DNA from: Flammeovirga sp. SJP92
Lineage (GTDB): Bacteria > Bacteroidota > Bacteroidia > Cytophagales > Flammeovirgaceae
Direction of reading: 5' to 3'
DNA: 64,000 nucleotides
NCBI RefSeq assembly: GCF_001583495.1
Contig: NZ_LQAQ01000078.1
Coordinates: 1-64,000 of the forward strand
The notes under the pieces: generated by a model
What the model was told of the DNA's origin: nothing
Database searches by the model: none
Seen by the model: only the letters and a program-made list of their open reading frames with translations
Shown here: positions 42,840-59,591 of the stretch, one piece after another
Layout of the letters: each line of letters begins with the position of its first letter
Numbering within the stretch: position 1 is the stretch's first letter
Program-made: the position numbers and the translations under genes

Positions 42840-43274
42840 GTTATCAATAAGATTAATGACTCTGTAAACTAAATTATCGTCAACTTTCACTCAACATTTC
42901 TACAAGCTTTGAAGGCTCTACTTTCAAGCATCCTTCTTCTTCATTTTTCCATTGATGAAAAACGAAGCAAAAAATCTAGGCTTAGAAGTCAAAAGCTAAA
43001 TTTCACTCCACTCGCCTCAATGATTTTAAACTCGCTTTGCTCAAACAAGAAAATCATTTTTAACGGCTCAATACATGAAATTCTTAACGCTTTTCCCTTC
43101 AATGCCAGGGGGGTACTACCAAACTATAACGGAAGAAAGCTCAATGGCACGAATGTTAAGCTTTCGTGTCCTTCAGATCATCAGAAATCTCCTGATTTCT
43201 AAACACTATAAATAACGCAAACTTCGTTTACATTGTGCCATAACATGTTTGGAAAATATATTCAAAACAAGCTT
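42840..43274. other. Intergenic region filled by a MITE-like element
   Basis: After the operon terminator nearly all of this gap is MITE copy 2 (42859-43236). No gene is supported; the open frame on the plus strand here is within the element and has no coding signature. Confidence 0.6.
42859..43236 (-). mobile_element. MITE-like element, copy 2 (inverted relative to copy 1)
   Basis: About 378 bp, nearly full length and clearly homologous (roughly 85 percent by eye) to the reverse complement of copy 1. The ends are decayed: ACTCTGTAAACTAA on the left and GTTTACATTGT on the right. No flanking duplication is recognisable. It lies between the GH3 operon terminator and the convergent sulfatase gene. 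Confidence 0.75.
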
Positions 43275-45185
43275 TTAAGTTTTATTTTTATAGTTATTCT
43301 CCACAACGCCCAAACTTCCTAAAAAGTCCAATGAAGCAACTTTTACATTGTACTCCCTTTTTAATTCATATACTTTCTGCATAGTAGAAATAAACGGTTT
43401 TTTTTGCTCATCATTGAAGTAATTGATTAGGTTGATGGCAAGTAAAGCGTCCTGCATATTTTCACTCAAACAGAAGTTTTCCAATTTTACTTTTGCATCT
43501 TGATCACCATAAAGGTCATATGCAATTATTGAAGCAATAATTGCAGCAGGTGAATACTGATCTTGCATAGCTTGAAGAATACTCTCTTTATATGAAAGTA
43601 CATTTTTTTTGGGCTGACTTCTAATACCTAATAACGCCCAGTACCTTTCAATTGCATTCTCACTATTTAAAAACTGCAATTGTATTTTGAGTGCTTCATT
43701 AGTTGTTTCGCCAGAAAGGAATGCAATATCAAAAATATTGTCAATGGGGCAGTTTTCATTGTTCAAACGGAATTCATACGGCGTACCTGTTTCGGAAATC
43801 TTATAGAGTTCATATTCAGGTAAAAACATCACATCTCTTCTTTCTAATAAATCAGCTTTTAAGTGTTTTTTCATTTTTTCTTTGATTTTATGAAAAGCAG
43901 GATCATCAGCAAGATTATTCGTTTCCCATTGATCATTTTGAATGTCGAAAAGGTATTCTTTAGGTCTCGGCTCAAAGATACTTTTTTGAAGTGAATCTAA
44001 TTGATTGTTTTTTAAGTCCGTCCGCATTTGATTGACGATATCTGAAATTTCCATATAACGGATATAGCGTTGTTGAGGAATAAACGGCATAAAGTTTCTG
44101 GAATAAATATACCTTCCGTCGGTCACTGTTCTAACTAAGTCAATACCGTTGTCAGATCGGTCAGATGATAAAGTAATGAGCTCCTTTTTCTTGGATCTGT
44201 TGTCTCCCATTAGGATTCTTCCTTTGAGGTGTTTCGGTAATTTCCCTCCCGCTAAATCAATAAGTGTAGGGGCTAGGTCTTCAAAATTGATGAGTTCATC
44301 TGTTACACCTCCATTTGTTTTCCAAGGTGAGAGGTGCTTATATTTTTCGGGAAACCAAACAACAAAAGGAACACGATACCCATAGTCTATACCATTGGTT
44401 TTTCCTCTTGGCATTCCTTCACCATGGTCAGCAAAAAAGAAAATGATTGTTTCCTCTTTCAAGCCTTCTTTATCGAGTCTTTCAAGAAGGTGACCAATTT
44501 TCTTATCCGTCATTGAAATGGAATTGTATACGCGGGCAAACTGTTTACGCATTTCAGGAGTGTCCTTGTAAATTGGAGGCATATTAAATGCATTTTCATC
44601 TATCTTTTCCTCCTTGTTCAGTTTGTTATATATCTTTTCCATGTACCAAGAATAGGGATTAGTCATGGTACGGGATTGGTGGGAATCTTCGAAATTAAAG
44701 ACAGCAAAGAAAGGTTGATCCTTCTTTCTATTCCACCAGCCTGCTTTTTTAGAACTTTCATTCCAGGCATCTTTAATAAATGCTTTTCCATTTCTAAGGT
44801 TATAATCCGTCTTTGCATTGTTAGTGACATAGTATCCTGCTTTTTTCATGTAATAAGGGAAACCATGAATCTGAGAGGGAATAGGGTACGAACTTCGGTG
44901 ATTACCAGTGCCCATTTCAAAAGTACGAACTCCTGTAATCAATGTACTTCTACTAGGTGAACAAACGGTGCCTGTGGAAAATGCATTTGTGAATCGAACA
45001 CCTTCTTCCGCTAATTGATCAATATGAGGAGTATGTGCGTTTTCATTGCCGTAACACCCAATAAATTGTGGAGAAGTGTCTTCAATGGTTATCCAAAGTA
45101 TGTTTGGTTTTGAAGTGGTTGGAGTGGAAGTTTTACACCCATAAAAGAAGGCGCTTACCAAAAGGAGTTTAAAGATATATTTCAT
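43275..45185 (-). CDS. S1-type sulfatase lipoprotein with C-terminal helical domain
   Basis: The 636-residue protein has lipobox FYGC (Cys17). The metal site begins with IED (34-36). The formylglycine motif CSPSR is at Cys75 (GTVCSPSRSTL), and ADHGEGMPRG supplies further ligands. After residue 510 the sulfatase fold is followed by about 120 residues of HEAT-like helices (QYSPAAIIASIIAYDLYG, DALLAINLINYF), as in heparan-N-sulfatase-like bacterial members. It is transcribed alone on the minus strand. A TTGCTA-N3-TAGCAA palindrome lies 87 bases upstream of its start, so it probably belongs to the regulon described in the findings. Confidence 0.9.
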   Translation of the reverse strand: MKYIFKLLLVSAFFYGCKTSTPTTSKPNILWITIEDTSPQFIGCYGNENAHTPHIDQLAEEGVRFTNAFSTGTVCSPSRSTLITGVRTFEMGTGNHRSSYPIPSQIHGFPYYMKKAGYYVTNNAKTDYNLRNGKAFIKDAWNESSKKAGWWNRKKDQPFFAVFNFEDSHQSRTMTNPYSWYMEKIYNKLNKEEKIDENAFNMPPIYKDTPEMRKQFARVYNSISMTDKKIGHLLERLDKEGLKEETIIFFFADHGEGMPRGKTNGIDYGYRVPFVVWFPEKYKHLSPWKTNGGVTDELINFEDLAPTLIDLAGGKLPKHLKGRILMGDNRSKKKELITLSSDRSDNGIDLVRTVTDGRYIYSRNFMPFIPQQRYIRYMEISDIVNQMRTDLKNNQLDSLQKSIFEPRPKEYLFDIQNDQWETNNLADDPAFHKIKEKMKKHLKADLLERRDVMFLPEYELYKISETGTPYEFRLNNENCPIDNIFDIAFLSGETTNEALKIQLQFLNSENAIERYWALLGIRSQPKKNVLSYKESILQAMQDQYSPAAIIASIIAYDLYGDQDAKVKLENFCLSENMQDALLAINLINYFNDEQKKPFISTMQKVYELKREYNVKVASLDFLGSLGVVENNYKNKT

Positions 45186-45271: not shown

Positions 45272-45288
45272 ATTGCTATTATAGCAAT
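45272..45288. promoter_or_regulatory. Operator-like palindrome, site 1
   Basis: ATTGCTATTATAGCAAT has perfect 8-bp arms around one central base. It lies 87 bases upstream of the minus-strand sulfatase start at 45185. The same TTGCTA-N3-TAGCAA core occurs at 48319, 49598 and 54562. Confidence 0.7.
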
Positions 45289-45390
45289 AAAAATAATTCA
45301 ATCTAAAACAATAACCAAATCAATGCATTAAAAAGTCATTCGGGTTGCATCATCTTTACAATCACTTTGGCTTATTGCATAAAAAATAAA

Positions 45391-45417
45391 TGGCTCCATA
45401 GTAAATTACTAGGAGCC
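45391..45417 (-). terminator. Terminator of the sulfatase gene at 45479-47026
   Basis: TGGCTCC-A-TAGTA pairs with TACTA-GGAGCCA with one bulged base and a short AAT loop. On the minus strand a T-rich run follows. Confidence 0.65.
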
Positions 45418-45478
45418 AAGTTGTTTGTTAAGTGTAGTTGCTAATTAAATTCTAAACTAAATATAAGTAGTCTGATTC

Positions 45479-47026
45479 TTATTTGGTTTGATGCTTTTTG
45501 TCTTCACCTCTGATGGTTTTGAATTCGTCATATAACGCTTCTACAAGCTGAGGATTTTCCTGTGCTATATTTTTACGTTGTGAAGGATCTTCTTTGAGAT
45601 TGTAAAGAGCCATTTCTTTACTGTTCCCCAATTCTATATTTACTTTTTTATTGATTTTACCCCCTTTGTAGGGAGGGATCAAAACATAGTTTCCTTTTCT
45701 GAAAGCCGTTCTAGAAGTCGCCTCAATGACTAAATTTTGACGTCCTTCTTTGGATTTTCCGACTAAGGCATCCAATACATTTTCAGAGTCAGTTGCCATT
45801 TCATCACTTCCTACTAAAGAGGCTAAAGAAGCAAATAAATCAAGCTGACAAACTAGAGCATCAGATGCCAGAGGATGAATTTGACCTTTCCAGTAAGTGA
45901 TAAAAGGAACGTGAGTACCGGCTTCAAAAAGTGAATATTTTCCTCCTCTTAAACCGCCAGCTGGATCATGATCACCAAGAAGTTCCACTGCATCATCATA
46001 GTATCCGTCGTTAAGTACCGGACCATTGTCAGAAGAAAGAATGATCAAAGTATTTTCTTCAATACCTGCTTCTTGAATCGACTTGATCAGTTCACCAATA
46101 CACCAATCCGCTTCTACAATCACATCACCTCTAGGTCCTTTTCCAGATTTACCTACAAATCTTGGATGAGGAGTTCTTGGCACATGTGGTTGTTGCATAG
46201 TATACGCCAAGAAGAAAGGTTGTTTTTTGGAAGAATTTATTTTGATATAGTCTTTAACCTTATCCAAAAAATGATCTGCCATTTCTACATCATTCCAAAG
46301 GGCCGATTGACCACCTTTCATATAACCAATTCTTGGAATACCGTTAATAATGGTGTTATTATGCTCATGATGCCATTTCATAGTGGTCAACTCAGGATTT
46401 TTCTTTCCTGTAGGTTGTCCTTCAAAATTCTTTTTATAATTGACTTCAATAGGGTCATTAGGATCAAGGCCTACTACATTTCCATTCTCAATGTAAACTG
46501 TAGGCACACGGTCTTGAGTTGCCGCCATAATGTAAGATTGATCAAACCCAACTTCATTAGGACCAGGAGAAATATGCTTGTTCCAATTCTTTTCACCTTG
46601 TCCAAGTCCAAGGTGCCATTTTCCAATGATTGCAGTTTGATATCCTTCTTTTCTCAACATTTTTGGAAGAGTGATTTGTGCTGTATCAATGAGTAATGGA
46701 TCTGTTCCAGAAAGAATATGTGCTCCTTTTTTCTTCCAAGGGTATTGCCCTGTCATCAGTGCATATCTTGAGGGAGTACAAGTAGCTGAAGAAGCGTAGG
46801 CATTCGTAAAGTTGACACCATTTTGAGCAAGGAAATCAATATTTGGAGTGGTAAATCCTTTAGCTCCATTGACGCTTATGTCACCATAACCTAAATCATC
46901 AAGGTAAACTAAAATAATATTAGGTTTGAGATGGGTTTTATCTTCTGACTTTGAAGTTTGTTTATTGCCCCCACATCCGAACAATAGGAATGAGAGTGTA
47001 AAAAAGATATATATATTTTTCATCAT
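45479..47026 (-). CDS. S1-type sulfatase lipoprotein
   Basis: The 515-residue protein has lipobox LFGC (Cys18). DD at 43-44 (YLDDLGYGD), CTPSR at Cys83 (ATCTPSRYALMTGQYPW) and SSDNGPVL are the canonical sulfatase motifs, with GKWHLGLGQ between them. It is a single-gene unit ended by the hairpin at 45391-45417. MITE copy 4 ends just upstream of its start and may have altered its promoter. Unlike its neighbours it has no TTGCTA palindrome in front. Substrate unknown. Confidence 0.9.
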   Translation of the reverse strand: MMKNIYIFFTLSFLLFGCGGNKQTSKSEDKTHLKPNIILVYLDDLGYGDISVNGAKGFTTPNIDFLAQNGVNFTNAYASSATCTPSRYALMTGQYPWKKKGAHILSGTDPLLIDTAQITLPKMLRKEGYQTAIIGKWHLGLGQGEKNWNKHISPGPNEVGFDQSYIMAATQDRVPTVYIENGNVVGLDPNDPIEVNYKKNFEGQPTGKKNPELTTMKWHHEHNNTIINGIPRIGYMKGGQSALWNDVEMADHFLDKVKDYIKINSSKKQPFFLAYTMQQPHVPRTPHPRFVGKSGKGPRGDVIVEADWCIGELIKSIQEAGIEENTLIILSSDNGPVLNDGYYDDAVELLGDHDPAGGLRGGKYSLFEAGTHVPFITYWKGQIHPLASDALVCQLDLFASLASLVGSDEMATDSENVLDALVGKSKEGRQNLVIEATSRTAFRKGNYVLIPPYKGGKINKKVNIELGNSKEMALYNLKEDPSQRKNIAQENPQLVEALYDEFKTIRGEDKKHQTK

Positions 47027-47036
47027 TAAAATTAAT

Positions 47037-47229
47037 TTGCTGTAAACTAAGTGATATACTGTTTTAGTCTCCTTTTAGATCATACCATCTAGTTCTTAAT
47101 TTTGAATTGAATCAAAAGCAAGGATAATAGAAGTCATAAAAGGTAGAGGTTAAAGCAAGCACATTGATGCTTGCAGATGATCAGAAATAGTCTAATTGTC
47201 TAAAACTGAAACAACTTAGTTTATAATAA
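47037..47229 (-). mobile_element. MITE-like element, copy 4 (short, decayed)
   Basis: About 193 bp bounded by TGTAAACTAAG on the left and CTTAGTTTATAA on the right, the same terminal repeats as copies 1-3. The internal segment GATGATCAGAAATAGTC near 47178 matches the corresponding part of copy 2. It is internally deleted and diverged. It occupies the promoter side of the sulfatase gene starting at 47026. Confidence 0.55.
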
Positions 47230-47247
47230 TTAGGATTGAGATATGTA

Positions 47248-47276
47248 AAAGCCCAAGTAAAGAGTACATGGGCTTT
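47248..47276 (-). terminator. Terminator of the lipoprotein gene at 47304-48224
   Basis: AAAGCCCA (47248-47255) and TGGGCTTT (47269-47276) pair, with a weak extension into the loop. On the minus strand TTTT follows. Confidence 0.65.
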
Positions 47277-47303
47277 ATGTATTTAATTGAAATGAATGAA
47301 ATA

Positions 47304-48224
47304 TTATTCTACTAAACCAACTAAAGAGTTGAATGATTTTAAGTTCGCGTCCGTTTCAAATTGAGTGTGTAAAACAAAAGGTTTGGCATTTTGCTTTGTG
47401 TCACTCATTTTAATTGTCACAAATTCTTTACCTGCACTTTGATTAGTTTTTAAGAAATCTGTGATTTCATAACTTAATCGTCTCATCTCTCCTAATTCAA
47501 AGACTAATTCATCTTCAGTAATTAGCTCAAATTGATCTTCAATGGCCATCACATCATCGTATAATGTTCCAGCTTCAATTTTTTCTCCAATTCCTGAGAT
47601 AGCTAAATTAATAGGAGCATTTTTACCTTCTTCCATACCACCATAAATAGAAAGAATAACTTTATTCTCATCTGACAGTTCACCAAGGTCAGAAAGCTTG
47701 ATGACTAATAGTGTATGAACTTGATCATTTTTATGATTTCTGACAACCAAACGGTCATCAACATGAGCTTCATCGGGGTTGGTGTACCATTCTGCAGCAT
47801 TACTGCCTTTAAAAGATTGTACATATCCTGTGTATGAAAATGGAATTTGCCCAATTTCACTGGTCAATAAGACTTCTGCTTGTCCTTCAACTTCACCTTC
47901 ACCCGCTTTTCCTTTAGTAGATACAGGCGTGAAAGAGAGAGAAACATCTGTCACGACAGGGATTTCATAAATACGGCTTTCTTCTGCATGGAAAGTGTAT
48001 TCATTTCCTTTAGAGTCTTTATATACTAGATCATGAGGAGGAGTTCCATCAAATTTTGCGGTGAAATAAGAATTAACAGTATCGCCTGCACTTTCAACAC
48101 TAAAAAGACTTTCTCCTTCTAAGGTTACTGATGCAGGTCGGGTTGGTAAGCTTTCTTCACTATCACAAGAGGCGAAAAGGCTTCCAGCCATGATAAGTAA
48201 TGGTAATATACTATTTCGTTTCAT
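47304..48224 (-). CDS. Lipoprotein with CBM96-like carbohydrate-binding domain
   Basis: The 306-residue protein has lipobox FASC (Cys20). Residues 30-140 look like an Ig-like domain (PASVTLEGESLFSVES). From about 150 the pattern VDDRLVVRN, TLLVIKLSDLGEL and NKVILSIYGG resembles the CBM96/DNRLRE-type domain found in alginate- and galactan-related secreted proteins. No catalytic residues are visible. It is likely a surface glycan-binding or structural lipoprotein. A TTGCTA-N3-TAGCAA palindrome lies 95 bases upstream, linking it to the sulfatases and symporter of the same region. Confidence 0.6.
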   Translation of the reverse strand: MKRNSILPLLIMAGSLFASCDSEESLPTRPASVTLEGESLFSVESAGDTVNSYFTAKFDGTPPHDLVYKDSKGNEYTFHAEESRIYEIPVVTDVSLSFTPVSTKGKAGEGEVEGQAEVLLTSEIGQIPFSYTGYVQSFKGSNAAEWYTNPDEAHVDDRLVVRNHKNDQVHTLLVIKLSDLGELSDENKVILSIYGGMEEGKNAPINLAISGIGEKIEAGTLYDDVMAIEDQFELITEDELVFELGEMRRLSYEITDFLKTNQSAGKEFVTIKMSDTKQNAKPFVLHTQFETDANLKSFNSLVGLVE

Positions 48225-48711
48225 TTTAAGATTAATTAAAAAATCAATGTAAACAGGACATTGTATTTGAACAGATGCTTTCTTTTATAATAGTAAAATC
48301 AATAATTTTACCGACAACGTTGCTAATATAGCAATTTGTTTGTATAATTGTACCATATTTACGAAGTTAAATTGTTAAAATTTCCATTTTCAAAGAAAAT
48401 CGATAGCAAACCGATCAAGAATAAAGGTTATTTTCATTTTTTAAGTACTAAGACAAAATAGGTGATAAATTAATTTTTAATTATTGTATTGGGAGTACAA
48501 CTCTGTGAAAGGGATGAATAGAAGTTCTGTAAAACGTTTTCATAAAGGCAGTAATCGCAAAATAATAATACACATTAATGATATTACTTTTGTAGTAGAA
48601 CTTACGATAAAGTAAACATCAAAGACTTCATGCATCGTTTATCATTCATCTCAACTTGAAGCAATAAACCTTTTTCTGTCTGGTAAGGTATCGATTAAAA
48701 ACTTTTAAGTT
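48225..48711. other. Divergent intergenic region with operator
   Basis: It holds the palindrome at 48319-48335 and the promoters of both flanking genes. TACTTTTG at 48585-48592 fits a -7 element for the plus-strand gene at 48712 but lacks a TTG partner at normal spacing. No other gene is seen. Confidence 0.45.
48319..48335. promoter_or_regulatory. Operator-like palindrome, site 2
   Basis: GTTGCTAATATAGCAAT contains TTGCTA-ATA-TAGCAA. It lies 95 bases upstream of the minus-strand lipoprotein start at 48224. Confidence 0.68.
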
Positions 48712-49314
48712 ATGAAAAAGTTCATCTTACTCAACATTTTTCTTGTGCTATTGGGACAATTTGTATTTGCACAGGATGACAAAACTGAAAAGAAAATTAA
48801 TAATTATATCTCTTATATGAATAAAACATTGGGAGGTACCCTCACAGGCGATCAAATTGTGTTGCTAAAAGCACAGCGTATTGATTTTCTTAAGGAATTA
48901 CAAAAAGTTGATAAATACGCAGTGAAAGAAAAAAGAAAGCTGGAAAAAGAATTTAAAGAAAACAGAAATAGAATTCTGACAGAAAATCAAATTACCGTTT
49001 TGGCTATCTCAAGATTGACGCGTAAAGAACTTTCTGTATTAAGGCAAATGTTCTCAATCTCTAAAGAACAACAAGGAGAATTGAAAGGGGAGTTAAAGCG
49101 AATGAATAAAATGCTCATTAGTGCTAGAAAGGTTTATGAGATAGATAGTCAACAATATTTAGAAATTGATTCATTGGTGGTAACCTCAAAGGAATATGCT
49201 TTCAATGAGATTTTTGATGTTGAGCAAAAGAAAAAGTTTGAAGAATTCAAGGGTAGGTATAATACGATTATTGTGAAGTATTCTGAAAGGATTGGTGTAG
49301 AGCTTCGAAATTAA
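48712..49314 (+). CDS. Secreted helical protein, LTxxQ/Spy-like
   Basis: The 200-residue protein has a signal peptide ending FVFAQ (20). The rest is highly charged helix with LTGDQIVLLKAQRIDFLKEL and ILTENQITVLAI, repeating the LTxxQ element of Spy/CpxP-like periplasmic proteins. It resembles the small proteins at 33513 and 34506 in style but is longer and only distantly similar. It is transcribed alone, divergent from the lipoprotein. A periplasmic chaperone or envelope-stress role is speculative. Confidence 0.65.
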   Translation: MKKFILLNIFLVLLGQFVFAQDDKTEKKINNYISYMNKTLGGTLTGDQIVLLKAQRIDFLKELQKVDKYAVKEKRKLEKEFKENRNRILTENQITVLAISRLTRKELSVLRQMFSISKEQQGELKGELKRMNKMLISARKVYEIDSQQYLEIDSLVVTSKEYAFNEIFDVEQKKKFEEFKGRYNTIIVKYSERIGVELRN

Positions 49315-49369
49315 TATTAATATATTCTTTTATTCATGTTTACACTGCTTTGTCATAAGTGGTGTAAGC

Positions 49370-49541
49370 ACTCTGTAAATTAAGTTTTTGAGTGTAAAAA
49401 TCTAGTTATTTCTGAAATATAGCTTTTGTTTCGTTTTTATTTTAAGACTAAAATGAAGAAAAAGTAAGTTTGGAAGTAGGGTCTGAAAAGCTTGTAGGAA
49501 ATCTGACTGAAGGTGGTTGACAACAATTTAGTTTATAATGT
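49370..49541 (+). mobile_element. MITE-like element, copy 3 (internally deleted)
   Basis: 172 bp in the orientation of copy 1. Ends are ACTCTGTAAATTAA and TTAGTTTATAATGT. The interior matches the right half of copy 1 (AAGCTTGTAG, GTTTCGTTTTTA); the left half is missing. Flanking 7-mers TGTAAGC and AATAAGC agree at five of seven positions, consistent with an old target duplication. Confidence 0.65.
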
Positions 49542-49597
49542 AATAAGCCTATTTTTTGGAGTGTTGATGGGCCTTTTATTAAATATATTTACATTAA

Positions 49598-49614
49598 GTT
49601 GCTATTATAGCAAT
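49598..49614. promoter_or_regulatory. Operator-like palindrome, site 3
   Basis: GTTGCTATTATAGCAAT contains TTGCTA-TTA-TAGCAA. It is about 80 bases upstream of the preferred sulfatase start at 49695. Confidence 0.7.
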
Positions 49615-49694
49615 AATGTTATATAATTGTATGAATAACACTATAAAGCGTTACAAGTAAACTTATGATATACGTACAGCGAGTTTGGAATTTG

Positions 49695-51152
49695 ATGGAT
49701 ATTAATTATCGTCTGCTGATTAGTTTTCTCTTCCCATTTTTCATTCCTGATGTGGGATTAGGACAAGTTGTCAACGATCAGCCCAATATTGTATTTTTCT
49801 TTGTAGATGATATGGGGATCAGCGATCTGTCTTGTTATGGTTCTGACTTTCATCAGAGCCCCAATATTGACAAGTTGGCCAATACTGGTATGAGATTTAC
49901 GAACGCTTATGCCGCCTGTACTGTATGTTCACCTTCAAGAGCAGCATTAATGACGGGACAATACCCTGCTCGATTACGAATAACGGATTGGATTGACGGT
50001 TGGTTTATGCCTTATGCCTCCATGAAAATTCCAGAATGGCAGTTGTTTCTACCTTCTGAAAGCAAAACATTGCCGGAAGAATTAAGAAAAAACGGATATA
50101 AAACCATCCATGTTGGCAAATGGCATTTAGGTGATAACGAAAAAGACTGGCCTTTGTCGCATGGTTTTGATGTAAATATAGGAGGCTGGAAGGCTGGATC
50201 ACCGGCTACCAACAAAGGAAGTTACTTTTCTCCGTATAATAACCAAACGTTAGCCGATGGTAAAAAAGGAGAATATTTGACGGATCGTTTAGTTAAAGAA
50301 GCGATCCAGCAAATTGAAAATTCGAAAGAACAGCCTTTTTATTTACAATTCAATTTTTACAATGTTCATACTCCTTTACAAGCGAAGCCTGAAAAGGTAG
50401 AGAAATATCAACACTTGATAGAAAACGGTAAGGGAGGTAAGCATCATCAAAATCCTACGTATGCCGCAATGGTCGAACATGTAGATGATGCGGTTGGTCA
50501 AATAGTGGATAAATTAGAAAAAGAAGGTATTCTTGATAATACCATCATTGTATTGAGCAGTGATAATGGTGGTTTGGAATTAAAAACCAATAAAAAAGGA
50601 AGGAAACCTAAAAGCAATTATCCTTACAGAGCCGGAAAAGGGAACTTTTATGAAGGTGGTGTAAGAGTGCCAATGATTGTGAAATGGGTTGGTCATATAC
50701 CAAAAGCAGAAAGTGATGTGCCAGCAATGACAATTGATTTTATGCCTACATTACTTTCTTTAACCTCAACTAAATACAAAAAGAAAACAGTTGATGGAGT
50801 AGATTTACGTCAAGTTTTGACTCAAAAAGAAAAGATAGACAGAACACTTTTTTGGCATTATCCGCACTACCACATACAAGGGGCAGAACCATACAGTGCA
50901 GTACTGAAAGGTCGCTGGAAGTATTACAGAATTTATGGCCAAAGAAATGAACTCTATGATTTATCTAATGATATTGGAGAAGCCAATAATGTGATTGATA
51001 AATATGAAGAGGTGGCCAATGAAATGGAGAAGGAACTGAATAGATGGTTAAAGCAAACAAAGGCACAATTGCCAGAGGCCAATCCTTATTTTGATCCAAT
51101 GAAAGAAAAGAAAACCAAACCCTACAATTTGAGAGATCAATTTTGGCAGTAG
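49695..51152 (+). CDS. Secreted S1-type sulfatase
   Basis: I prefer ATG 49695 (485 residues): it opens on the signal peptide MDINYRLLISFLFPFFIPD, while ATG 49665 adds ten residues with no leader character. DDM follows the first strand. CSPSR (Cys78 from this start, CTVCSPSRAALMTGQYP), GKWHLGDNEKDWP and SSDNGGLE are canonical. The C-terminal stretch carries LFWHYPHYHIQG, common in exo-acting galactan sulfatases. It is downstream of an operator-like palindrome and 136 bases upstream of the CBM-bearing glycosidase, so it may head that transcript. Confidence 0.9.
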   Translation: MDINYRLLISFLFPFFIPDVGLGQVVNDQPNIVFFFVDDMGISDLSCYGSDFHQSPNIDKLANTGMRFTNAYAACTVCSPSRAALMTGQYPARLRITDWIDGWFMPYASMKIPEWQLFLPSESKTLPEELRKNGYKTIHVGKWHLGDNEKDWPLSHGFDVNIGGWKAGSPATNKGSYFSPYNNQTLADGKKGEYLTDRLVKEAIQQIENSKEQPFYLQFNFYNVHTPLQAKPEKVEKYQHLIENGKGGKHHQNPTYAAMVEHVDDAVGQIVDKLEKEGILDNTIIVLSSDNGGLELKTNKKGRKPKSNYPYRAGKGNFYEGGVRVPMIVKWVGHIPKAESDVPAMTIDFMPTLLSLTSTKYKKKTVDGVDLRQVLTQKEKIDRTLFWHYPHYHIQGAEPYSAVLKGRWKYYRIYGQRNELYDLSNDIGEANNVIDKYEEVANEMEKELNRWLKQTKAQLPEANPYFDPMKEKKTKPYNLRDQFWQ

Positions 51153-51288
51153 GGATTTTTATAATGAGATGAATTTTTATCATTTATTGAATGGCTCTCT
51201 AATTCAATTTAAAAAGAATCATCCTTCTTGTAGATGTCTTTTTAAATGAATGTTTATTCAGTAAAGCAATTTTTTAAAACATAATTCA

Positions 51289-54200
51289 ATGAGAAAACTA
51301 CTTACCTTTTTATTAGGTAGCTTATTAGCTACGTCTAATTTGTGGGCACAGAGTATTTCTGTGGACATCAGTAAGAAACAACAGCAGTTTTTAGGAGCTG
51401 GGGGAACCTGTGACAGTTACATTGGTCACTGGTTAAGTATGTCAGATGAGAATAGGCTTTTGGCATCGAAAATGGTGGCAGAAGATATTCACCTTGATTT
51501 TGTCAAGCATTATATCAATGGCAGACCTACAGAGGAGAATGAAAAACAATACAACAACTTTACAGCTTTTGTAGAAGACATCCGTAAGATCAATCCAGAT
51601 ATCAAAGTACAAATGTGTGTGCAGGATATTCCTGAAGATCTAAGAAGAGATCCAGATAAGAAAAAAGAATTTGATGATAGTGATCCTGAAATTTATGATA
51701 AAATGGCTCAATATTACTATTCTGTAATTGAGGGTTTTCATGATAGAGGTGTGCAGATTGATGAATTAGATATTCTCAACGAGCCAGGAGGTACAGGTTT
51801 TGCCGTTTACTATGGTGGCCTTTATAAATATTCAGTGCCGAAATTGCGTGAAATGATTGAAGATCCTTCTATCAATACTAAAGGAATGAAAATGCCTCAT
51901 ATTGGAGGTACCAGTCAGTGGAGCGTTTTGGGTGTAATCAAATGGTTTGACGTATGGAAAGCAGAAATTCCTGAAGCATATGATGAAATTGATGTAGTGT
52001 CTACACATGGTTATAGAAACGGATGGGATGAGAAAAACTATAAAGATATCTATGACTACATTGATGGTTTACCTTTCCAAAATAATGAGCAAACTGGTAA
52101 ATTACAGAAAGGTGATGGTTTATATGAAATCTTCGAACAATCTGAGCCAGATTATATTGGTGATGTTTCAATGGGTATGCGTATCAGTGATGCCATTAAT
52201 GGAGGTGTGAACCACTTTTTCATTTTCAATATCAATAACTCTTCAGGAAATAACGCAGCACTTCTTCAAACACCTTCAGGTGGTTCTCCAGTTAAATCAA
52301 AAGTGTATGATGGTTTCAAACAATTGACATCTTCATATCCTCTTGGCTCTTACTGTTTGCCAGAAAGAGGAATGAAAGATATGGAGCTTACACGTGTATT
52401 GGCGATGAGAGATGGTGATGAAAATGTAGTATACCTAAACATTACCAATATTGCTCCTGAAGCACAGACGATCTCTATTGATTTTAATGACAATGGTGCT
52501 AATCAAGGTATTGCTGCTGTTCAATCATGGGTGAGTACGCAAGCTTACGATATTGAGGAAGTAATGAACCTTAACTATACGCAGTCAGTAGATAAAATTT
52601 CATTCGATGCTTCTCCATTTAGTGTAAATACACTTAAAATCACTTTAGATCCAAATGGTGGAGCTGTTTCATTAAAGCCTCAAACTATTGAATTTCCTGC
52701 AATCGAAGAGCAGTTTTTAAGAAGCACTTATACATTAGATGCTGTGACTAGTTCAGGATTGCCTGTTCAATATGAAGTAGTAGATGGTCCTGCAGTGATT
52801 AATGATGGTGTGATGACTTTTTCTGGAGAAGGACAAGTGAAAATCAGAGCTTATCATATGGGTAATGAAGAGTTTGATGGTGCACCTTCAGTGATAAGAT
52901 CATTTAAAGTAATTACAGGCGCATTGGTGAATGTTGCTAAAGGGAAGACTATCTTTTCAGTAACAAATGAAGATGCGAACTATCCTGCTAAATACCTTAT
53001 CGATGGAGATAAAATAAATAAAACCAGCCGTTGGATTACTGAAAAGGATATTCCTTTGCCACATGAAGTTGTGATTGATTTGGAAGAACCTTATGATATT
53101 ACTGGAGTTGGAATGTGGTCTGGTAGTTCAGATGGAGTATATAGCAATCCATTAGTTGGATTTGAAATGAGTGTGGAAGTTGATGGACAATGGATCAAAG
53201 TGTTGGAAGAAACAGATAACAGAAACCCAGAGTATATTAAATTCTTTGATAAAATAACTGCTCAAAAAGTAAAGCTTCAAGTCAATAACTTAGATAAAGG
53301 TACGGACACAAGAATGCGAATGTTTGAGCTAGAGGTTTATGCCGCGGACGATACTGAAATTGAGTGGAATTTGGAGGAAGGAATTGTGATGTTAGGGGAT
53401 GAAATTCAGATGGAAGCCACTTCTTCAACCGGAGAACCTGTAACTTTTGCAACAAGTGATGAGAGTATTGCAACACTGAATGAGACCAACTTACTTACAA
53501 TTGTAGGAGCTGGTAATGTTCAAATTTCAGCTACTACTAACACAGCACAAGGGGTACCGGTGACGTTCAATAAAACATTGAATGCAAGAAAAGAAAACAC
53601 AATCACTTGGGAGCAGGATATTGCCAAACTTGCAGTTGGAGGTGCTTACTCTTTAGCCGCACAAGGGGGCTCAAAAGTGAAATATTTATTAAAAGAAGAT
53701 TCCGATGCTGCTATTCTTGAAGGAAGCTCATTGAGAGGTAATGAAGTTGGTAATATTACGGTAATTGCATACGCAGAAGCGGATCAAGTATATATTGAGT
53801 CTGAAAGATTAGAAAAAGCAGTAGTAGTTAAATATCAAGATGAGATTGATTGGAGTGAGCAAGTCACTACACTTAAAGTAGGAGGAGAGGTATCTTTGAC
53901 AGCCTTTTCAATTTACACAGATCAAGAAGTAAATTTCATCGTTGATGATGCGTCTATTGCAGTAGTTGAAGAGGGTAAATTAGTTGGCAAATCCGCAGGA
54001 TCAGTGACCTTGAAAGCGATGACATCAGAGACTGAAACACTTTTTGCGGCGGTTGAAGTTTCCAAGACCTTTAAAGTTGAAACAGATGATGTGACAAGCG
54101 TAGATGTACCTTCATTGGATCAATTGGTATACCCTAACCCAAATAATGGATTATTCCAAATCAGAAACTTGAAGGCAAATGAAGTCATTCATGTATTTAA

Positions 54201-54336
54201 TGGAGTGGGTGTATTAGTGAAATCTATTGATATCCAAGACCCTGCAGGAACAATTGACCTGTCAGATTTGGTGAAAGGTATTTACTATATCAAAACATCA
54301 AATAATACAAACAACCTCAAAATATTAATTAAGTAA
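51289..54336 (+). CDS. Secreted clan-A (GH30-like) glycosidase with F5/8-type CBM and T9SS tail
   Basis: The 1015-residue protein has a signal peptide ending NLWAQ (21). A TIM barrel (about 25-400) has acid/base Glu165 in LDILNEPGG and a likely nucleophile at Glu286 (FEQSEPDYIG; Glu283 is an alternative). A beta domain follows, then an F5/8 type C (CBM32-like) domain (NVAKGKTIFSVTNE to RMFELEVYA, about 545-685). Ig-like BIG2 repeats (about 690-930) lead to a type A T9SS tail (LVYPNPNNGLFQIRN to NLKILIK). It is thus exported to the cell surface. The barrel looks GH30/GH39-like but I cannot fix the family. The position between a sulfatase and the symporter suggests it makes the sugar that the symporter imports. 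Confidence 0.78.
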   Translation: MRKLLTFLLGSLLATSNLWAQSISVDISKKQQQFLGAGGTCDSYIGHWLSMSDENRLLASKMVAEDIHLDFVKHYINGRPTEENEKQYNNFTAFVEDIRKINPDIKVQMCVQDIPEDLRRDPDKKKEFDDSDPEIYDKMAQYYYSVIEGFHDRGVQIDELDILNEPGGTGFAVYYGGLYKYSVPKLREMIEDPSINTKGMKMPHIGGTSQWSVLGVIKWFDVWKAEIPEAYDEIDVVSTHGYRNGWDEKNYKDIYDYIDGLPFQNNEQTGKLQKGDGLYEIFEQSEPDYIGDVSMGMRISDAINGGVNHFFIFNINNSSGNNAALLQTPSGGSPVKSKVYDGFKQLTSSYPLGSYCLPERGMKDMELTRVLAMRDGDENVVYLNITNIAPEAQTISIDFNDNGANQGIAAVQSWVSTQAYDIEEVMNLNYTQSVDKISFDASPFSVNTLKITLDPNGGAVSLKPQTIEFPAIEEQFLRSTYTLDAVTSSGLPVQYEVVDGPAVINDGVMTFSGEGQVKIRAYHMGNEEFDGAPSVIRSFKVITGALVNVAKGKTIFSVTNEDANYPAKYLIDGDKINKTSRWITEKDIPLPHEVVIDLEEPYDITGVGMWSGSSDGVYSNPLVGFEMSVEVDGQWIKVLEETDNRNPEYIKFFDKITAQKVKLQVNNLDKGTDTRMRMFELEVYAADDTEIEWNLEEGIVMLGDEIQMEATSSTGEPVTFATSDESIATLNETNLLTIVGAGNVQISATTNTAQGVPVTFNKTLNARKENTITWEQDIAKLAVGGAYSLAAQGGSKVKYLLKEDSDAAILEGSSLRGNEVGNITVIAYAEADQVYIESERLEKAVVVKYQDEIDWSEQVTTLKVGGEVSLTAFSIYTDQEVNFIVDDASIAVVEEGKLVGKSAGSVTLKAMTSETETLFAAVEVSKTFKVETDDVTSVDVPSLDQLVYPNPNNGLFQIRNLKANEVIHVFNGVGVLVKSIDIQDPAGTIDLSDLVKGIYYIKTSNNTNNLKILIK

Positions 54337-54387
54337 CACCTCATAGAAACACCTAGAATAACGAATAAATAGTTGGAATAAGTTGAT

Positions 54388-54431
54388 AAAGTCATCCCTT
54401 GTTTACTTGTAAATAGAGGGGTGGCTTTTTT
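54388..54431 (+). terminator. Terminator after the CBM-bearing glycosidase
   Basis: AAAGTCATCCCTT pairs with GAGGGGTGGCTTT using G-U pairs across a 14-nt loop, followed by TTTTTT. It ends the glycosidase transcript and separates it from the symporter gene. Confidence 0.65.
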
Positions 54432-54561
54432 CATTTTTAATGAAAAGTCAGGGCTGATAGGTTATGGATTTCAATTCATTTAGCTTTAAGGAGATAAAAT
54501 CAACATTTTTTCCTAAAGAATTTTAAAATAGTAGAATAAATATTTAAAACTTAAATCTATA

Positions 54562-54578
54562 ATTGCTATATTAGCAAT
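54562..54578. promoter_or_regulatory. Operator-like palindrome, site 4
   Basis: ATTGCTATATTAGCAAT contains TTGCTA-TAT-TAGCAA and ends only 26 bases before the symporter start at 54604. At that distance it would overlap the transcription start or leader, suited to repression. Confidence 0.72.
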
Positions 54579-54603: not shown

Positions 54604-56280
54604 ATGGGAGCGTTTGATTTTTTAGTGATACTAATTTTTTCCCTAATTGTATTAGGTGTAGGAATTACATTTTCGAGAGAGAAAGATTTAAAGGGGTTTT
54701 TCGCAGGCGGTGGAGCAGTGCCTTGGGGTATGAGCGGTTTATCGCTTTTTATGGGCTTCTTCTCTGCAGGAACTTTTGTAGTATGGGGAGCCATTGCTTA
54801 TGAGTATGGTGCAGTGGCAATTGCGATTCAATGGACGATGTGTATAGCAGGCTTCTTAGTAGGTAAACTGATTGTAGAGAAGTGGCATAAAACGGGTGCT
54901 GTGACAGTCGCAGAATATTTGAGATTTAGATTTGATGGTGACACACAAAAGGTATTTACTTATTTATTTTTATTAATGTCTTTTGCCTACACAGGGGCTT
55001 TCTTATATCCTGTAGCAAAGATTATCAGCGTGTCATTAGATGCGTCAATCTATACTTGTATTTTGGTATTGGGCATATTTATGATCTTATATACCACACT
55101 TGGAGGATTAAAAGCAGTAATGGTCACAGATGTATTGCAGTTTGTTATTTTATTGTCCGCCATCATTATTGTCATTCCTTTAGCTTTGAATTATGTGGGT
55201 GGTGTAGACAATTTTGTAAATAATTCACCAGAAGGATTCTTTGAATTGGTCAACAAGCAATACTCTCCATTATTTTTATTGTCGTTTGGAGTATACAATT
55301 CAATTTTTATTGGTGGTAACTGGGCCTACGTCCAACGCTACACTTCCGTATCAACTCCAAAAGCAGCGAAAAAGGTAGCTTACTTATTTGGAGGGTTATA
55401 TATTTTCAGTCCAATTTTATGGATGTTGCCTCCAATGATTTATAAAGTAGTTGATCCCAATCTAATGGGACTTGAGATAGAAGGAGCATATTTATTAATG
55501 TGTCAGAAAGTATTGCCGGAAGGAATGTTAGGTTTGATGATCGGAGGAATGTTGTTCGCTACAGCAAGTTCCGTAAATGGCTCCCTAAATATTTCAGCAG
55601 CGGTGATTACAAATGATATTGTTTTAAAACTGAAACCGAATTTATCAGACAAACAAAAAATACAAGTGGCCCGAATGGCAACAATCTTTTGTGGAGTCTT
55701 TGCTATCGGTGTGGCACTTTTAGTTCCATCAGTAGGAGGTATTGTCAATGTGGTACTCAGCATTAGTGCCGTAACCGGAACATCGCTTTACGCTCCTCCA
55801 ATCTGGAGTTTGTTTTCAGAGCGATTGGGAAAATCACAAATAATTAAAATTACAATTGCAAGTTTGTTGATTAATGTAATACTTAAAATTCTGCCAATGG
55901 TGATGGATTGGGAAGGTTTAAGTAGGGCAATTGAAATGTTAGTAGGTGTCGTTGTTCCGTTTTCGTTATTAGCAATAAACGAATTGCTTCAAAAAGCAAA
56001 AGACAGCATTGAACTTCATCAAGTCAATGAGATAGCAAAAAGGAGAGAGGAAGTGGTTGAAACTGCAGGAACAAATGCTTTCAGCTTAAAAGTAATGAGT
56101 TATTCATTATTTGCGGTTTGTATCTTATTCTTAGGGATTGCCACTACAGGAGAAGACGGTTGGACTTGGCTCGTGGGAATAGGGGCAATCATTGCAGTGA
56201 TGGCTTATGTTTTACTGAGAAAAGCCAATAATGCGGTGAAAGAAGAAGAACATTTAGAATTAAAAGTAAAGAGAAATTAA
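54604..56280 (+). CDS. Sodium:solute symporter (SSS family)
   Basis: The 558-residue integral inner-membrane protein has about 13-14 hydrophobic segments and the SSS-family pattern: TM1 DFLVILIFSLIVLGVGITF, then GGAVPWGMSGLSLFMGFFSAGTF, and LYTTLGGLKAVMVTDVLQF in TM5-6. It would couple Na+ entry to uptake of a sugar, uronate or related solute. No SusC/SusD is present, so this is the only transporter in the window and probably imports a released monosaccharide. The palindrome just upstream suggests regulation by the same factor as neighbouring sulfatases. FAD oxidoreductase and IclR genes follow on the same strand. Confidence 0.88.
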   Translation: MGAFDFLVILIFSLIVLGVGITFSREKDLKGFFAGGGAVPWGMSGLSLFMGFFSAGTFVVWGAIAYEYGAVAIAIQWTMCIAGFLVGKLIVEKWHKTGAVTVAEYLRFRFDGDTQKVFTYLFLLMSFAYTGAFLYPVAKIISVSLDASIYTCILVLGIFMILYTTLGGLKAVMVTDVLQFVILLSAIIIVIPLALNYVGGVDNFVNNSPEGFFELVNKQYSPLFLLSFGVYNSIFIGGNWAYVQRYTSVSTPKAAKKVAYLFGGLYIFSPILWMLPPMIYKVVDPNLMGLEIEGAYLLMCQKVLPEGMLGLMIGGMLFATASSVNGSLNISAAVITNDIVLKLKPNLSDKQKIQVARMATIFCGVFAIGVALLVPSVGGIVNVVLSISAVTGTSLYAPPIWSLFSERLGKSQIIKITIASLLINVILKILPMVMDWEGLSRAIEMLVGVVVPFSLLAINELLQKAKDSIELHQVNEIAKRREEVVETAGTNAFSLKVMSYSLFAVCILFLGIATTGEDGWTWLVGIGAIIAVMAYVLLRKANNAVKEEEHLELKVKRN

Positions 56281-56426: not shown

Positions 56427-58706
56427 ATGATTCAAGAATCTTATAGCAAAAACAGAAGCCTTAAGGAAGTTTCAATTGAAACGGACTTATTAATTGTAGG
56501 TGGAGGATTATCAGGGACTTGTGCGGCAATTACAGCGGCTCGTCAGGGTGTAAAGGTAGTTTTGGTACAAGACAGGCCAGTATTAGGGGGAAATGCCTCT
56601 AGTGAAGTGAGATTGTGGGCTTTAGGGGCTACTTCCCATATGGGAAACAACAATAGATGGTCTAGAGAAACAGGTGTGACAGGTGAAATTCTAGAAGAAA
56701 ATCTCTATAGAAATAAAGAAGGTAATGCTTTGATCTTCGATACTATTCTGATTGAAAAGGTAAAGCAGGAAGAAAACATTACTTTGTTGCTGAATACATC
56801 TGCTTTTGAAGTAGCACATGAGAATACAAGTATTCAAGCTGTCAAGGCTTTTAATAGCCAAAATTCAACACTTTATACTCTAAGTGCCAAGCGTTTTTGT
56901 GATGCATCTGGAGATGGCGTATTGTCATTCTTGGCAGGGGCTTCATTTAGAATGGGGGCTGAAACAATAGAGGAATTTGGTGAAAAAATGGCTCCAAATG
57001 TAGAGCAGTATGGAGAATTATTAGGTCATACTATTTATTTCTACACCAAAGACACAGGAAAACCCGTCAATTTTACTCCTCCAGCGTATGCTTTGAAGGA
57101 CATTACTGAGTTGCCAAGATTTAAAAATATCCAGGCAGATCATACCGGTTGTAATTACTGGTGGATTGAATATGGAGGACGTTTTGATACAATTCACGAA
57201 ACGGAGAACATCAAATATGAGCTTTGGAAAATCGTTTATGGTATCTGGAATTATATCAAGAACTCTGGTAAGTTTCCTGAAGCGGAAAATATGACGCTGG
57301 AGTGGGTAGGAACAGTACCAGGTAAGCGTGAAAGTAGACGTTTTGAGGGCTTATACATGATGAAACAGCAAGATGTCATTGAGCAAAGAAAGTTTGATGA
57401 TGCAATTGCACATGGTGGTTGGGCACTTGATTTACACCCTTCTGATGGTGTGTATTCTTCACTGCCTAGTTGTACGCAGTGGCACTCAAAAGGGACGTAT
57501 CAAATTCCTTTAAGTACAGCCATCAGTAGAGATATTGATAATTTGTACTTTGCTGGTAGACTGATTAGTGTTTCACATGTGGCGTTTGGATCTACAAGAG
57601 TAATGCTGACAAGTGCAGTTGCGGCAGAAGGTACGGCAGTAGCAGCGGCTTATTCTATCAAAAATGATGTGCTTCCAAAGGATACTGTGGAGAAAGAACA
57701 TATTGAGAAAATTCAGCAAGCACTTTTAGAGAAGTCCTCTTACATCCCTCATTTGAAGTTGGATAAGTCTAACTTCTTGAGTGCGAAAGCAAAGGTTACT
57801 GTATCATCAGAGTTGAATTTAGCAGAATTGAGACCTTCAAATACTTGGAAAACATTACAAATGCCAACAGCTCAGATGTTGCCGATCACCAGTGATCAAA
57901 AGACATTGGAGTTGAGAGTTCCAATTATTGCGGGGAAAGAAACTACTGTAGATGTGGAGTTGAAAGTCAGCCTTGATGCAACCAACTTTACACCTGAAAA
58001 AGTAGTAGGAATTCAATCAAAAGAAATAGAAAAAGGACATCAATTTGTTGATTTAAAATTTGATGTGTCTGACTTAGAAGATCGATATGTTTTTGTTTGT
58101 TTTGCCCCTAATCCAGACTTGCAATTGAATTATTCAGAGGATAGAATTACGGGTATATTATCTGTTTTCAGAAAAGAAAATAAAGCCGTGTCGAATTTCG
58201 GTCAGCAAGAACCACCATCGGATATTGGTATCGATGCATTTGAATTCTGGACACCTCAACGCCGTCCTGAAGGTCAAAATATCACAATGCAACTTCAGAC
58301 GCCATTATTCATTGGTAAGAAAGAGCATTTAGATTCAGGAATTATTAGGCCTGTAACATCTACCAATGCATGGATTGCCGCTCTGGATGATGCCTATCCA
58401 ACATTGACATTAGAATGGGAAAATGTGGAGGAAATTTCTTCGATGAAACTTTATTTTGATGCAGATTTGGACCATGCCATGGAGAGTACGCAATTTGGCC
58501 ATCCAGAGTCAATTGTCCCTTATTGTGTGGAATCTTTCAGAATAAAAGATGAGAATGGAAAATGTCTATTTCAAACCGAAAACAATCATACTACACTCTG
58601 TGAAATAACTTTTGATCAACCTGTAAAAACATCGAAGTTAACGGTAGAATTTGATCGTAAGGATAGCAGAATTCCAGTATCTCTTTTTGATGTAATTTGT
58701 GACTAA
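56427..58706 (+). CDS. FAD-dependent oxidoreductase
   Basis: The 759-residue protein has no signal peptide and is probably cytoplasmic. Residues 22-50 hold the Rossmann dinucleotide motif (LLIVGGGLSGTCAAITAARQ) with acidic end VVLVQDR, then VLGGNASSEVRLW, as in the FAD_oxidored group. GRLISVSHVAFGSTR near residue 380 is the second FAD-contacting region. The C-terminal 290 residues are a beta-rich extension of unknown role. The partner and substrate are not evident; members of this group often sit next to carbohydrate genes, and oxidation of an imported sugar is an inference only. It is 146 bases after the symporter and 165 before the IclR gene. Confidence 0.82.
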   Translation: MIQESYSKNRSLKEVSIETDLLIVGGGLSGTCAAITAARQGVKVVLVQDRPVLGGNASSEVRLWALGATSHMGNNNRWSRETGVTGEILEENLYRNKEGNALIFDTILIEKVKQEENITLLLNTSAFEVAHENTSIQAVKAFNSQNSTLYTLSAKRFCDASGDGVLSFLAGASFRMGAETIEEFGEKMAPNVEQYGELLGHTIYFYTKDTGKPVNFTPPAYALKDITELPRFKNIQADHTGCNYWWIEYGGRFDTIHETENIKYELWKIVYGIWNYIKNSGKFPEAENMTLEWVGTVPGKRESRRFEGLYMMKQQDVIEQRKFDDAIAHGGWALDLHPSDGVYSSLPSCTQWHSKGTYQIPLSTAISRDIDNLYFAGRLISVSHVAFGSTRVMLTSAVAAEGTAVAAAYSIKNDVLPKDTVEKEHIEKIQQALLEKSSYIPHLKLDKSNFLSAKAKVTVSSELNLAELRPSNTWKTLQMPTAQMLPITSDQKTLELRVPIIAGKETTVDVELKVSLDATNFTPEKVVGIQSKEIEKGHQFVDLKFDVSDLEDRYVFVCFAPNPDLQLNYSEDRITGILSVFRKENKAVSNFGQQEPPSDIGIDAFEFWTPQRRPEGQNITMQLQTPLFIGKKEHLDSGIIRPVTSTNAWIAALDDAYPTLTLEWENVEEISSMKLYFDADLDHAMESTQFGHPESIVPYCVESFRIKDENGKCLFQTENNHTTLCEITFDQPVKTSKLTVEFDRKDSRIPVSLFDVICD

Positions 58707-58871: not shown

Positions 58872-59591
58872 ATGATTAGATCAAAAAGACCGGCACAGCC
58901 AATACAAGGCTTAATTGATGGATTGGAAGTGTTACAGACATTAACCGTATTAGATAAACCGGCTTCAGTTAAGGATATATCTGAGATGCTAAACATGGAA
59001 AAAACCAAAGTGAACCGTCTACTTAGAACGCTTTCCTTTTTAGGCTATACCTATCAAGATAGCCAAAGAAGGTACATTCCAGGTGCGGCGGTGCATGTTT
59101 TAGCCGCTCATTCATTACATGCTTCTAAAGTATTTCAGATTGCGTTCAAGTATATCGAACCGCTTTTGGAATTAGATTGTGTAGTGGCAATTGGGGTTTT
59201 ATGGAACAATCATGTTTCTTATTTGTATCACTGGTCACCGGGTATGTCTACAATGGAAGCCATTGGTAAAATGGCCGTTTATCCTTTAGAAAAATCTTCT
59301 ATTGGACAAATTTTATTAGCACATAGAGACGAAGTAGATTTGGACTATGTAGTGAAAGACTTAAAACTGAGCAAAGAATATACAGATCAGTTGAAAATAG
59401 ATAAAGAAAACGGTTATAGCGTTATTAAAAACGAGAAGACAAGTATTGCAGTAAGAGTGAATACAGCAGATGATATTGCTATCGCTCTTTCTGATTTTGA
59501 TGGAAACCATACAAACGAAGAAGTGGTTGAGTTATTGAAGAAAACAACACTTCAAATTCAATCTGCTTTTCAGGCGGCTTCCGGAAGATAA
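58872..59591 (+). CDS. IclR-family transcriptional regulator
   Basis: The 239-residue protein has an N-terminal winged helix-turn-helix (about 12-75: GLEVLQTLTVLDKPASVKDI, then KVNRLLRTLSFLGY) and a C-terminal IclR effector-binding domain (about 85-235: PLEKSSIGQILLAHRDE, SIAVRVNTADDIAIALS). IclR proteins bind small ligands and short palindromic operators. It is the only complete candidate regulator in the window. It is 56 bases upstream of a GH30-like gene and downstream of the symporter and FAD genes. Control of the TTGCTA-N3-TAGCAA sites is a plausible inference. Confidence 0.9.
   Translation: MIRSKRPAQPIQGLIDGLEVLQTLTVLDKPASVKDISEMLNMEKTKVNRLLRTLSFLGYTYQDSQRRYIPGAAVHVLAAHSLHASKVFQIAFKYIEPLLELDCVVAIGVLWNNHVSYLYHWSPGMSTMEAIGKMAVYPLEKSSIGQILLAHRDEVDLDYVVKDLKLSKEYTDQLKIDKENGYSVIKNEKTSIAVRVNTADDIAIALSDFDGNHTNEEVVELLKKTTLQIQSAFQAASGR

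Follow-up and report, generated by a model that had tools for sequence, protein, structure and literature searches.

In a 64,000-nucleotide stretch of DNA from Flammeovirga sp. SJP92 (contig NZ_LQAQ01000078.1, here C78, positions 1 to 64,000; "the window"), we found four perfect copies of a 15-bp palindrome, TTGCTANNNTAGCAA, all of them intergenic on the map of open reading frames (ORFs). Two further perfect copies lie just past the end of the window on the same contig, preceding a susC gene and a glycoside hydrolase family 16 (GH16) gene, and all six sites fall in one gene cluster that probably serves the use of a sulfated red-algal galactan. A local regulon with six sites is well supported, and it is likely, judging from the sequences, that the IclR-family protein encoded within the cluster (58872-59591) binds them. 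The account as a whole, in which the palindrome is the operator of a local regulon of about six units that a dimer of the cluster IclR protein represses and a sugar releases, we regard as probable.

Perfect intergenic palindromes are confined to one gene cluster

A first-pass annotation of this DNA had reported the four copies in the window and described all of them as intergenic; a sequence scan and the ORF map bear this out, with each start position moved up by one base. The six sites of the cluster are as follows.

S1, 45273-45287, TTGCTATTATAGCAA on the + strand, 87 bp before the start of the sulfatase gene 43275-45185 (- strand)
S2, 48320-48334, in the gap between two divergent genes, with the start of 47304-48224 (- strand) 95 bp away and that of 48712-49314 (+ strand) 377 bp away
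S3, 49599-49613, 51 bp upstream of the sulfatase gene 49665-51152 (+ strand)
S4, 54563-54577, 26 bp upstream of the symporter gene 54604-56280 (+ strand), heading the unit that contains the IclR gene
S5, C78:64504-64518, outside the window, 98 bp upstream of susC
S6, C78:84992-85006, outside the window, 23 bp upstream of the GH16 gene

Each site had been assigned to the front of a different transcription unit; this needs correction for S2, with its divergent neighbors. An order-2 Markov model built from 800 kb of this genome predicts 0.0067 perfect copies for the window and 0.89 for the 8.49-Mb genome, so the earlier statement that four copies exceed chance stands. Among all palindromes in the window with two 6-base arms and a 3-base spacer, TTGCTA is the only arm that occurs more than once. 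When up to two mismatches were allowed, the window count of 8 was unremarkable against shuffled sequence (mean, 4.42; 8 of 100 shuffles reached 8), and the signal therefore rests in the perfect copies only.

A search of the whole genome for scattered copies, which the first-pass annotation had named as a refuting outcome, returned 10 perfect palindromes, compared to none for a backward-read control. Six of the 10 are the sites listed above, within one 40-kb stretch of C78, whereas the other four (on C61, C63, C77, and C98) exceed the 0.89 expected but are all inside ORFs. Thus, perfect intergenic copies are restricted in this genome to a single stretch of one gene cluster, and sites predicted from the window reappeared beyond it, at susC and the GH16 gene. 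The galactan genes at 0 to 43 kb, before which no site had been reported, indeed have none with fewer than two mismatches; the two-mismatch matches there, at 6800, 12841, and 30846, are all within ORFs.

Copies with exactly one mismatch number 34 more genome-wide, and the backward-read control gives 22 at up to one mismatch. Of 33 examined, 30 fall within ORFs of at least 100 amino acids, and the 34th, at C78:90758, is within ORF 86665-91731. The three others are at C20:8762, C32:79432, and C14:128563, the last of which, on inspection by eye, probably runs into the beginning of a short opposite-strand reading frame. The copy at C20:8762-8776 (locus L060 of this genome, G000) is upstream of a defence-like pair of genes, AAA/OLD-like and UvrD, and about 5 kb from another IclR gene (3031-3801); it is probably a chance occurrence.

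The sites are conserved in three relatives

We found the cluster in three other Flammeovirga genomes, those of Flammeovirga sp. OC4 (G008), Flammeovirga sp. EKP202 (G009), and F. aprica JL-4 (G004). The gene order of the block is kept in all three, although it is split over two contigs in F. aprica, and 23 of the 24 cluster ORFs are matched in each; the 24th (71148-71654) apparently belongs to a longer gene in these genomes. Perfect copies of all six sites occur at the corresponding positions in the relatives, giving 24 of 24 sites in four genomes. In alignments of the six upstream regions, invariant columns made up 72 of 72 in the arms, 16 of 18 in the spacer, and 334 of 480 in the flanks (Fisher P about 6e-11), with flanks taken as 60 columns before and 20 after each site and gaps scored as changes. 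At S1 and S3, the flanks have diverged strongly while the arms are unchanged, and spacer letters vary without any change in spacer length; at S2, the entire surrounding region is highly conserved. The relatives are close, with regulators 91 to 94% identical, and common descent contributes to the conservation of the sites.

The 24 sites together have the extended form RTTGCTAWWWTAGCAAY, with A in 19 and G in 5 at the left flanking position and T in 20 and C in 4 at the right, which can be written RTTGCTA-WWW-TAGCAAY; the sequence common to the sites is no longer than about 17 bp. Site centers in the SJP92 genome lie about 31 (S6), 34 (S4), 59 (S3), 95 (S1), 103 (S2), and 106 (S5) bp before the start codon. 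In each of the four genomes, S4 and S6 end 21 to 29 bp upstream of the ATG, as does S1 in F. aprica (24 bp), and S1 in the other three genomes, S2, and S5 are 87 to 99 bp ahead of the start codon.

A seventh perfect site is present in strain EKP202 (C43:26876-26890; L047), on a contig other than that of the cluster, where it precedes a sulfatase gene (27062-28609) adjoining a GH88 gene; at E ≤ 1e-100, the remaining eight genomes of the genus gave no match to this extra sulfatase. The local regulon suggested by the first-pass annotation is thus supported and larger than its four sites: it has six here, each conserved in three relatives, and one relative adds a seventh. The five other genomes of the genus (G003, G005, G006, G007, and G010) have no site cluster, and the lone perfect copies that G006 and G015 each have fall within ORFs.

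Two other short elements were considered at the sites and rejected. TAnnTTTG is the Bacteroidetes -7 box, and across 439 upstream regions from the SJP92 genome it is enriched on the coding strand (114, compared to 59 on the other strand). The TATATTAG within the palindrome was dropped as such a box, since TAnnTTAG is not enriched in these regions (35 versus 39). The TATAATTG found eight bases past S2 (+ strand) and S3 is likewise not enriched in upstream regions (4 versus 6).

The IclR-family protein is the candidate binder

A Pfam scan of the 24 cluster ORFs found a single DNA-binding domain, in the product of 58872-59591, the protein that the first-pass annotation had named as its nearest candidate; gene content, position, co-occurrence, and motif geometry all back that choice. 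The protein has an N-terminal IclR-type helix-turn-helix (PF09339, 33.8 bits against a cut-off of 22), and it gives weak, full-length-like matches to the solved IclR proteins 5tjj, 5whm, and 5y6i (E, 0.0009 to 0.003). It did not fall within a named subfamily (PcaR/PcaU/PobR, KdgR, or AllR), as its best NCBIfam matches were far below cut-off (e.g., 51.2 of 284.75 bits), and a structure model built from a 4-row alignment was too poor to use (mean predicted local distance difference test score, 39.7). Its gene is the third behind S4, and the sites flank adjacent units.

Orthologues of the regulator are present in four of the nine genomes of the genus, exactly those with the site cluster, and each genome of the genus has two to five PF09339 matches. 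When more distant relatives were sought, the SJP92 genome itself was the sole match among 395 genomes of the phylum at E ≤ 1e-10 and among 395 of the class at E ≤ 1e-5, and a search of genome contigs gave three Flammeovirga loci only.

To set the palindrome beside known operators, we drew on parts of a survey of the IclR family (Suvorova and Gelfand 2021, PMC8222616), which define two types of motif. One of these, WTT-11-AAW (group 1), has the consensus WTTYCRYW3RYGRAAW. The sites described here are like this class in being 15 bp long, with 11 bp between a TT at one end and an AA at the other, a C at position 4, and an A/T center, and the TT-11-AA frame with its A/T center is found in 24 of 24 sites. 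The same parts of the survey place most IclR site centers 20 to 80 bp before the start codon, with 22 the most frequent position; three of the six centers here (31 to 59 bp) are inside this range, and three are 95 to 106 bp upstream. The TphR operator of Comamonas sp. E6, as given there, contains TTGCGC-ATA-GCGCAA, with the same TTGC ends and 6-3-6 frame, but it differs in having GC rather than TA at the inner half-site positions and in serving terephthalate rather than polysaccharide genes. Bacteroidetes/Chlorobi contribute only 0.65% of the WTT-11-AAW class in that account.

We also surveyed 14 stretches from 8 genomes, of which 13 (7 genomes) were chosen for susC relatives 39 to 45% identical to that of the cluster and one for an IclR protein in G013. 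None of the 14 has a perfect site, the single one-mismatch copy (in G001) is inside an ORF, and an IclR protein was present in none except G013. Pfam was run on selected neighbors of the susC relatives, with those in G364, G207, and G081 left out. Genes for a sigma factor and FecR precede the susC relatives in G011 and G125, a FecR-domain ORF lies before susC in G179, and in G001 a LacI gene is beside a related symporter-oxidoreductase pair. In these other Bacteroidota, extracytoplasmic-function sigma/FecR or LacI genes thus occupy the place expected for the regulator of a susC/susD unit. In contrast, the 24 ORFs of the Flammeovirga cluster gave no match to a sigma, FecR, LacI, or two-component domain and instead include one IclR gene with a shared operator, which suggests that IclR control may be special to this cluster. 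In the open-access literature, four spellings of the operator found no match, and none of the matches listed for IclR with carrageenan or polysaccharide utilisation loci was on this subject; Flammeovirga and IclR appeared together in one paper only, which in the passages returned concerns xylan loci.

A model for control of the cluster and its alternatives

In the model that we propose, RTTGCTA-WWW-TAGCAAY would be the operator of a local one-component regulon of about six transcription units. A dimer of the cluster-encoded IclR protein would bind each site and block transcription, including that of its own unit, and a sugar or oligosaccharide released by the sulfatases and galactosidases of the cluster would free the sites and so switch the units on together. 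The effector might be galactose or an anhydrogalactose derivative, which is a guess. We infer that the genes behind each site are co-transcribed; since the IclR gene is third behind S4, the regulator would control itself if unit S4 is one transcript. Such a circuit would be real but not exotic. It would provide a cluster for red-algal galactan with a specific operator and a candidate regulator, and would do so in Bacteroidota, a phylum for which there are few descriptions of IclR control. The sites also flag genes that are likely used together on one substrate.

Several results weigh against assigning the sites to the IclR protein or against the model more broadly. The half-site TTGCTA differs from the class half-site TTYCRY at positions 3, 5, and 6 of six (PMC8222616, in the parts used here), so that the putative operator departs from the published IclR letters. 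The effector domain (PF01614, residues 80 to 168) scores 23.6 bits, just under its cut-off of 24. The co-occurrence of regulator and sites is weak evidence because the cluster susC is present in the same four genomes only (other matches in the genus are 35 to 39% identical); the IclR gene and the rest of the cluster are present or absent together, and co-occurrence cannot separate them. The search for distant IclR relatives yielded none with such sites that could serve as an independent test, and the 20-kb stretch around the 30%-identical IclR protein of G013 has no site at up to one mismatch. Tandem sites are common among IclR proteins, but none of the 24 sites has a second copy with up to two mismatches within 80 bp (the best had three). 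Finally, a -7-like reading of the palindrome, which would have placed the promoters, is not supported by genome statistics.

The half-site differences speak for another reading, in which the operator set is genuine but is bound by a different regulator, for example of MarR or TetR type, whose gene lies elsewhere in the genome, while the IclR protein acts elsewhere; the screen for co-occurring genes, moreover, was confined to the cluster. We consider this unlikely, given that the IclR protein is the only product of the cluster with a recognized DNA-binding domain, that its gene lies within a site-headed unit, that the motif frame matches, and that neither the IclR orthologue nor the site cluster is present in five of the nine genomes of the genus. 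If the IclR protein does bind the sites, then repression, as the mode of control, is favored with somewhat less assurance than the binding itself. It is the simplest reading because S4 and S6, at 21 to 29 bp before the ATG, leave hardly any room for a downstream promoter, and a protein bound there would lie over the promoter or the first bases of the transcript; S1 in F. aprica is placed in the same way. For the remaining sites, the distance to the start codon does not decide the mode, and the 87- to 99-bp positions of S2, S5, and, outside F. aprica, S1 are ones at which an activator could bind. The IclR family includes activators (PMC8222616, same parts), but the scant promoter room at S4 and S6 makes it improbable that the protein acts here as an activator or dual regulator.

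The inverted repeat might instead form an RNA hairpin in leaders, since it has a six-base stem and a three-base loop before genes and could fall in the leader near the ATG. That the arms are letter-identical across 24 sites, with zero compensatory changes, points to recognition of the sequence; in addition, S2 lies between divergent genes and no Rfam match was found in the window at the gathering threshold, and we regard a hairpin as very improbable. A chance or dispersed-repeat origin could appeal to the one-mismatch copies, which are mostly within ORFs and, at 34, not far above the control of 22, but it is refuted by conservation, as the perfect sites are kept at 24 of 24 orthologous places though their flanks diverge. 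The small number of perfect copies expected in the window and the absence of shared sequence past about 17 bp argue against it as well.

Returning to IclR repression, a broader and more tentative possibility, one that we would not yet favor, is that in this Flammeovirga lineage a single IclR repressor, with an operator off the published IclR letters, took over a whole carrageenan-type cluster in place of sigma/anti-sigma or LacI control. The cell would then sense a late, cytoplasmic breakdown product, and a distant sulfatase could be recruited, as in strain EKP202.

The cluster and its likely substrate

The cluster has 24 ORFs of at least 100 amino acids, from C78 position 43275 to about 91731, although the last of them, ending at 91731, may be outside it. 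It includes nine sulfatase genes, SusC, SusD, two GH2, one GH16, and one GH30-like gene, a symporter, a flavin adenine dinucleotide (FAD)-dependent oxidoreductase, and the one IclR-type regulator. Its susC/susD pair with matching hydrolases and sulfatases is that of a polysaccharide utilisation locus. The genes of the units headed by S1 to S4 are as follows.

43275-45185, - strand, sulfatase (PF00884), unit S1
45479-47026, - strand, sulfatase (PF00884), second gene of unit S2 on this strand
47304-48224, - strand, 306-amino-acid protein without matches in Pfam or NCBIfam, first gene of unit S2 on this strand
48712-49314, + strand, 200-amino-acid protein without matches in Pfam or NCBIfam, on the + side of S2
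49665-51152, + strand, sulfatase, nearest solved relative the kappa-carrageenan sulfatase S1_16, unit S3
51289-54336, + strand, secreted protein with an F5/8-type-C domain and a Por secretion tail, unit S3
54604-56280, + strand, sodium/solute symporter (PF00474), first gene of unit S4
56427-58706, + strand, FAD-dependent oxidoreductase (PF12831), unit S4
58872-59591, + strand, IclR-family regulator of 239 amino acids (PF09339), third gene of unit S4
59648-61150, + strand, GH30-like glycosidase (PF14587), unit S4
61187-62680, + strand, sulfatase (PF00884), unit S4
C78:62685-64106, past the window, sulfatase ending unit S4

Four of the nine sulfatases were compared with solved structures, and in all four the nearest relatives were carrageenan sulfatases. 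The GH16 protein scores 48.7 of 350 bits with the kappa-carrageenase model, far under its cut-off, and its solved relatives are weak and mixed (a beta-glucanase best at 3.3e-7, a porphyranase at 6.1e-6). The cluster is probably a utilisation locus for a carrageenan-like sulfated red-algal galactan.

In the cluster, a 508-amino-acid sulfatase ORF (C78 69617-71143) is followed by a 168-amino-acid ORF (71148-71654) where the three relatives have one 642-amino-acid ORF, and a split of the gene at 69617-71654, either in the SJP92 genome itself or in its assembly, is possible. The sulfatase at C78 81549-82946 is 96 to 98% identical to its orthologues (G004 C287:26730-28127, G008 C139:56917-58314, and G009 C65:111304-112701), compared to 75 to 95% for the other matched ORFs of the block.

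A second galactan region, separate from the cluster, occupies 688-42781 of the window and includes a gene for a porphyranase-type protein (18986-20836) along with GH2, GH3, GH28, GH43, and sulfatase genes. This region is without the operator and does not adjoin the cluster in the relatives. Its genes are outside the conserved block, as the best match to any ORF of 0 to 43 kb in the 17 to 26 kb beside the block in strains OC4 and EKP202 is 36% identical.

An intergenic repeat of about 385 bp is dispersed through the genome, with copies that are 84 to 92% alike (window 33894-34277 and 42861-43236; C78 77583-77956, 86222-86607, and 91928-92313); a search of 800 kb of genome sequence gave about 30 more. 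A remnant at 49424-49535 ends 63 bp before S3, and one copy fills a 950-bp gap within the cluster that is less than 200 bp in the three relatives.

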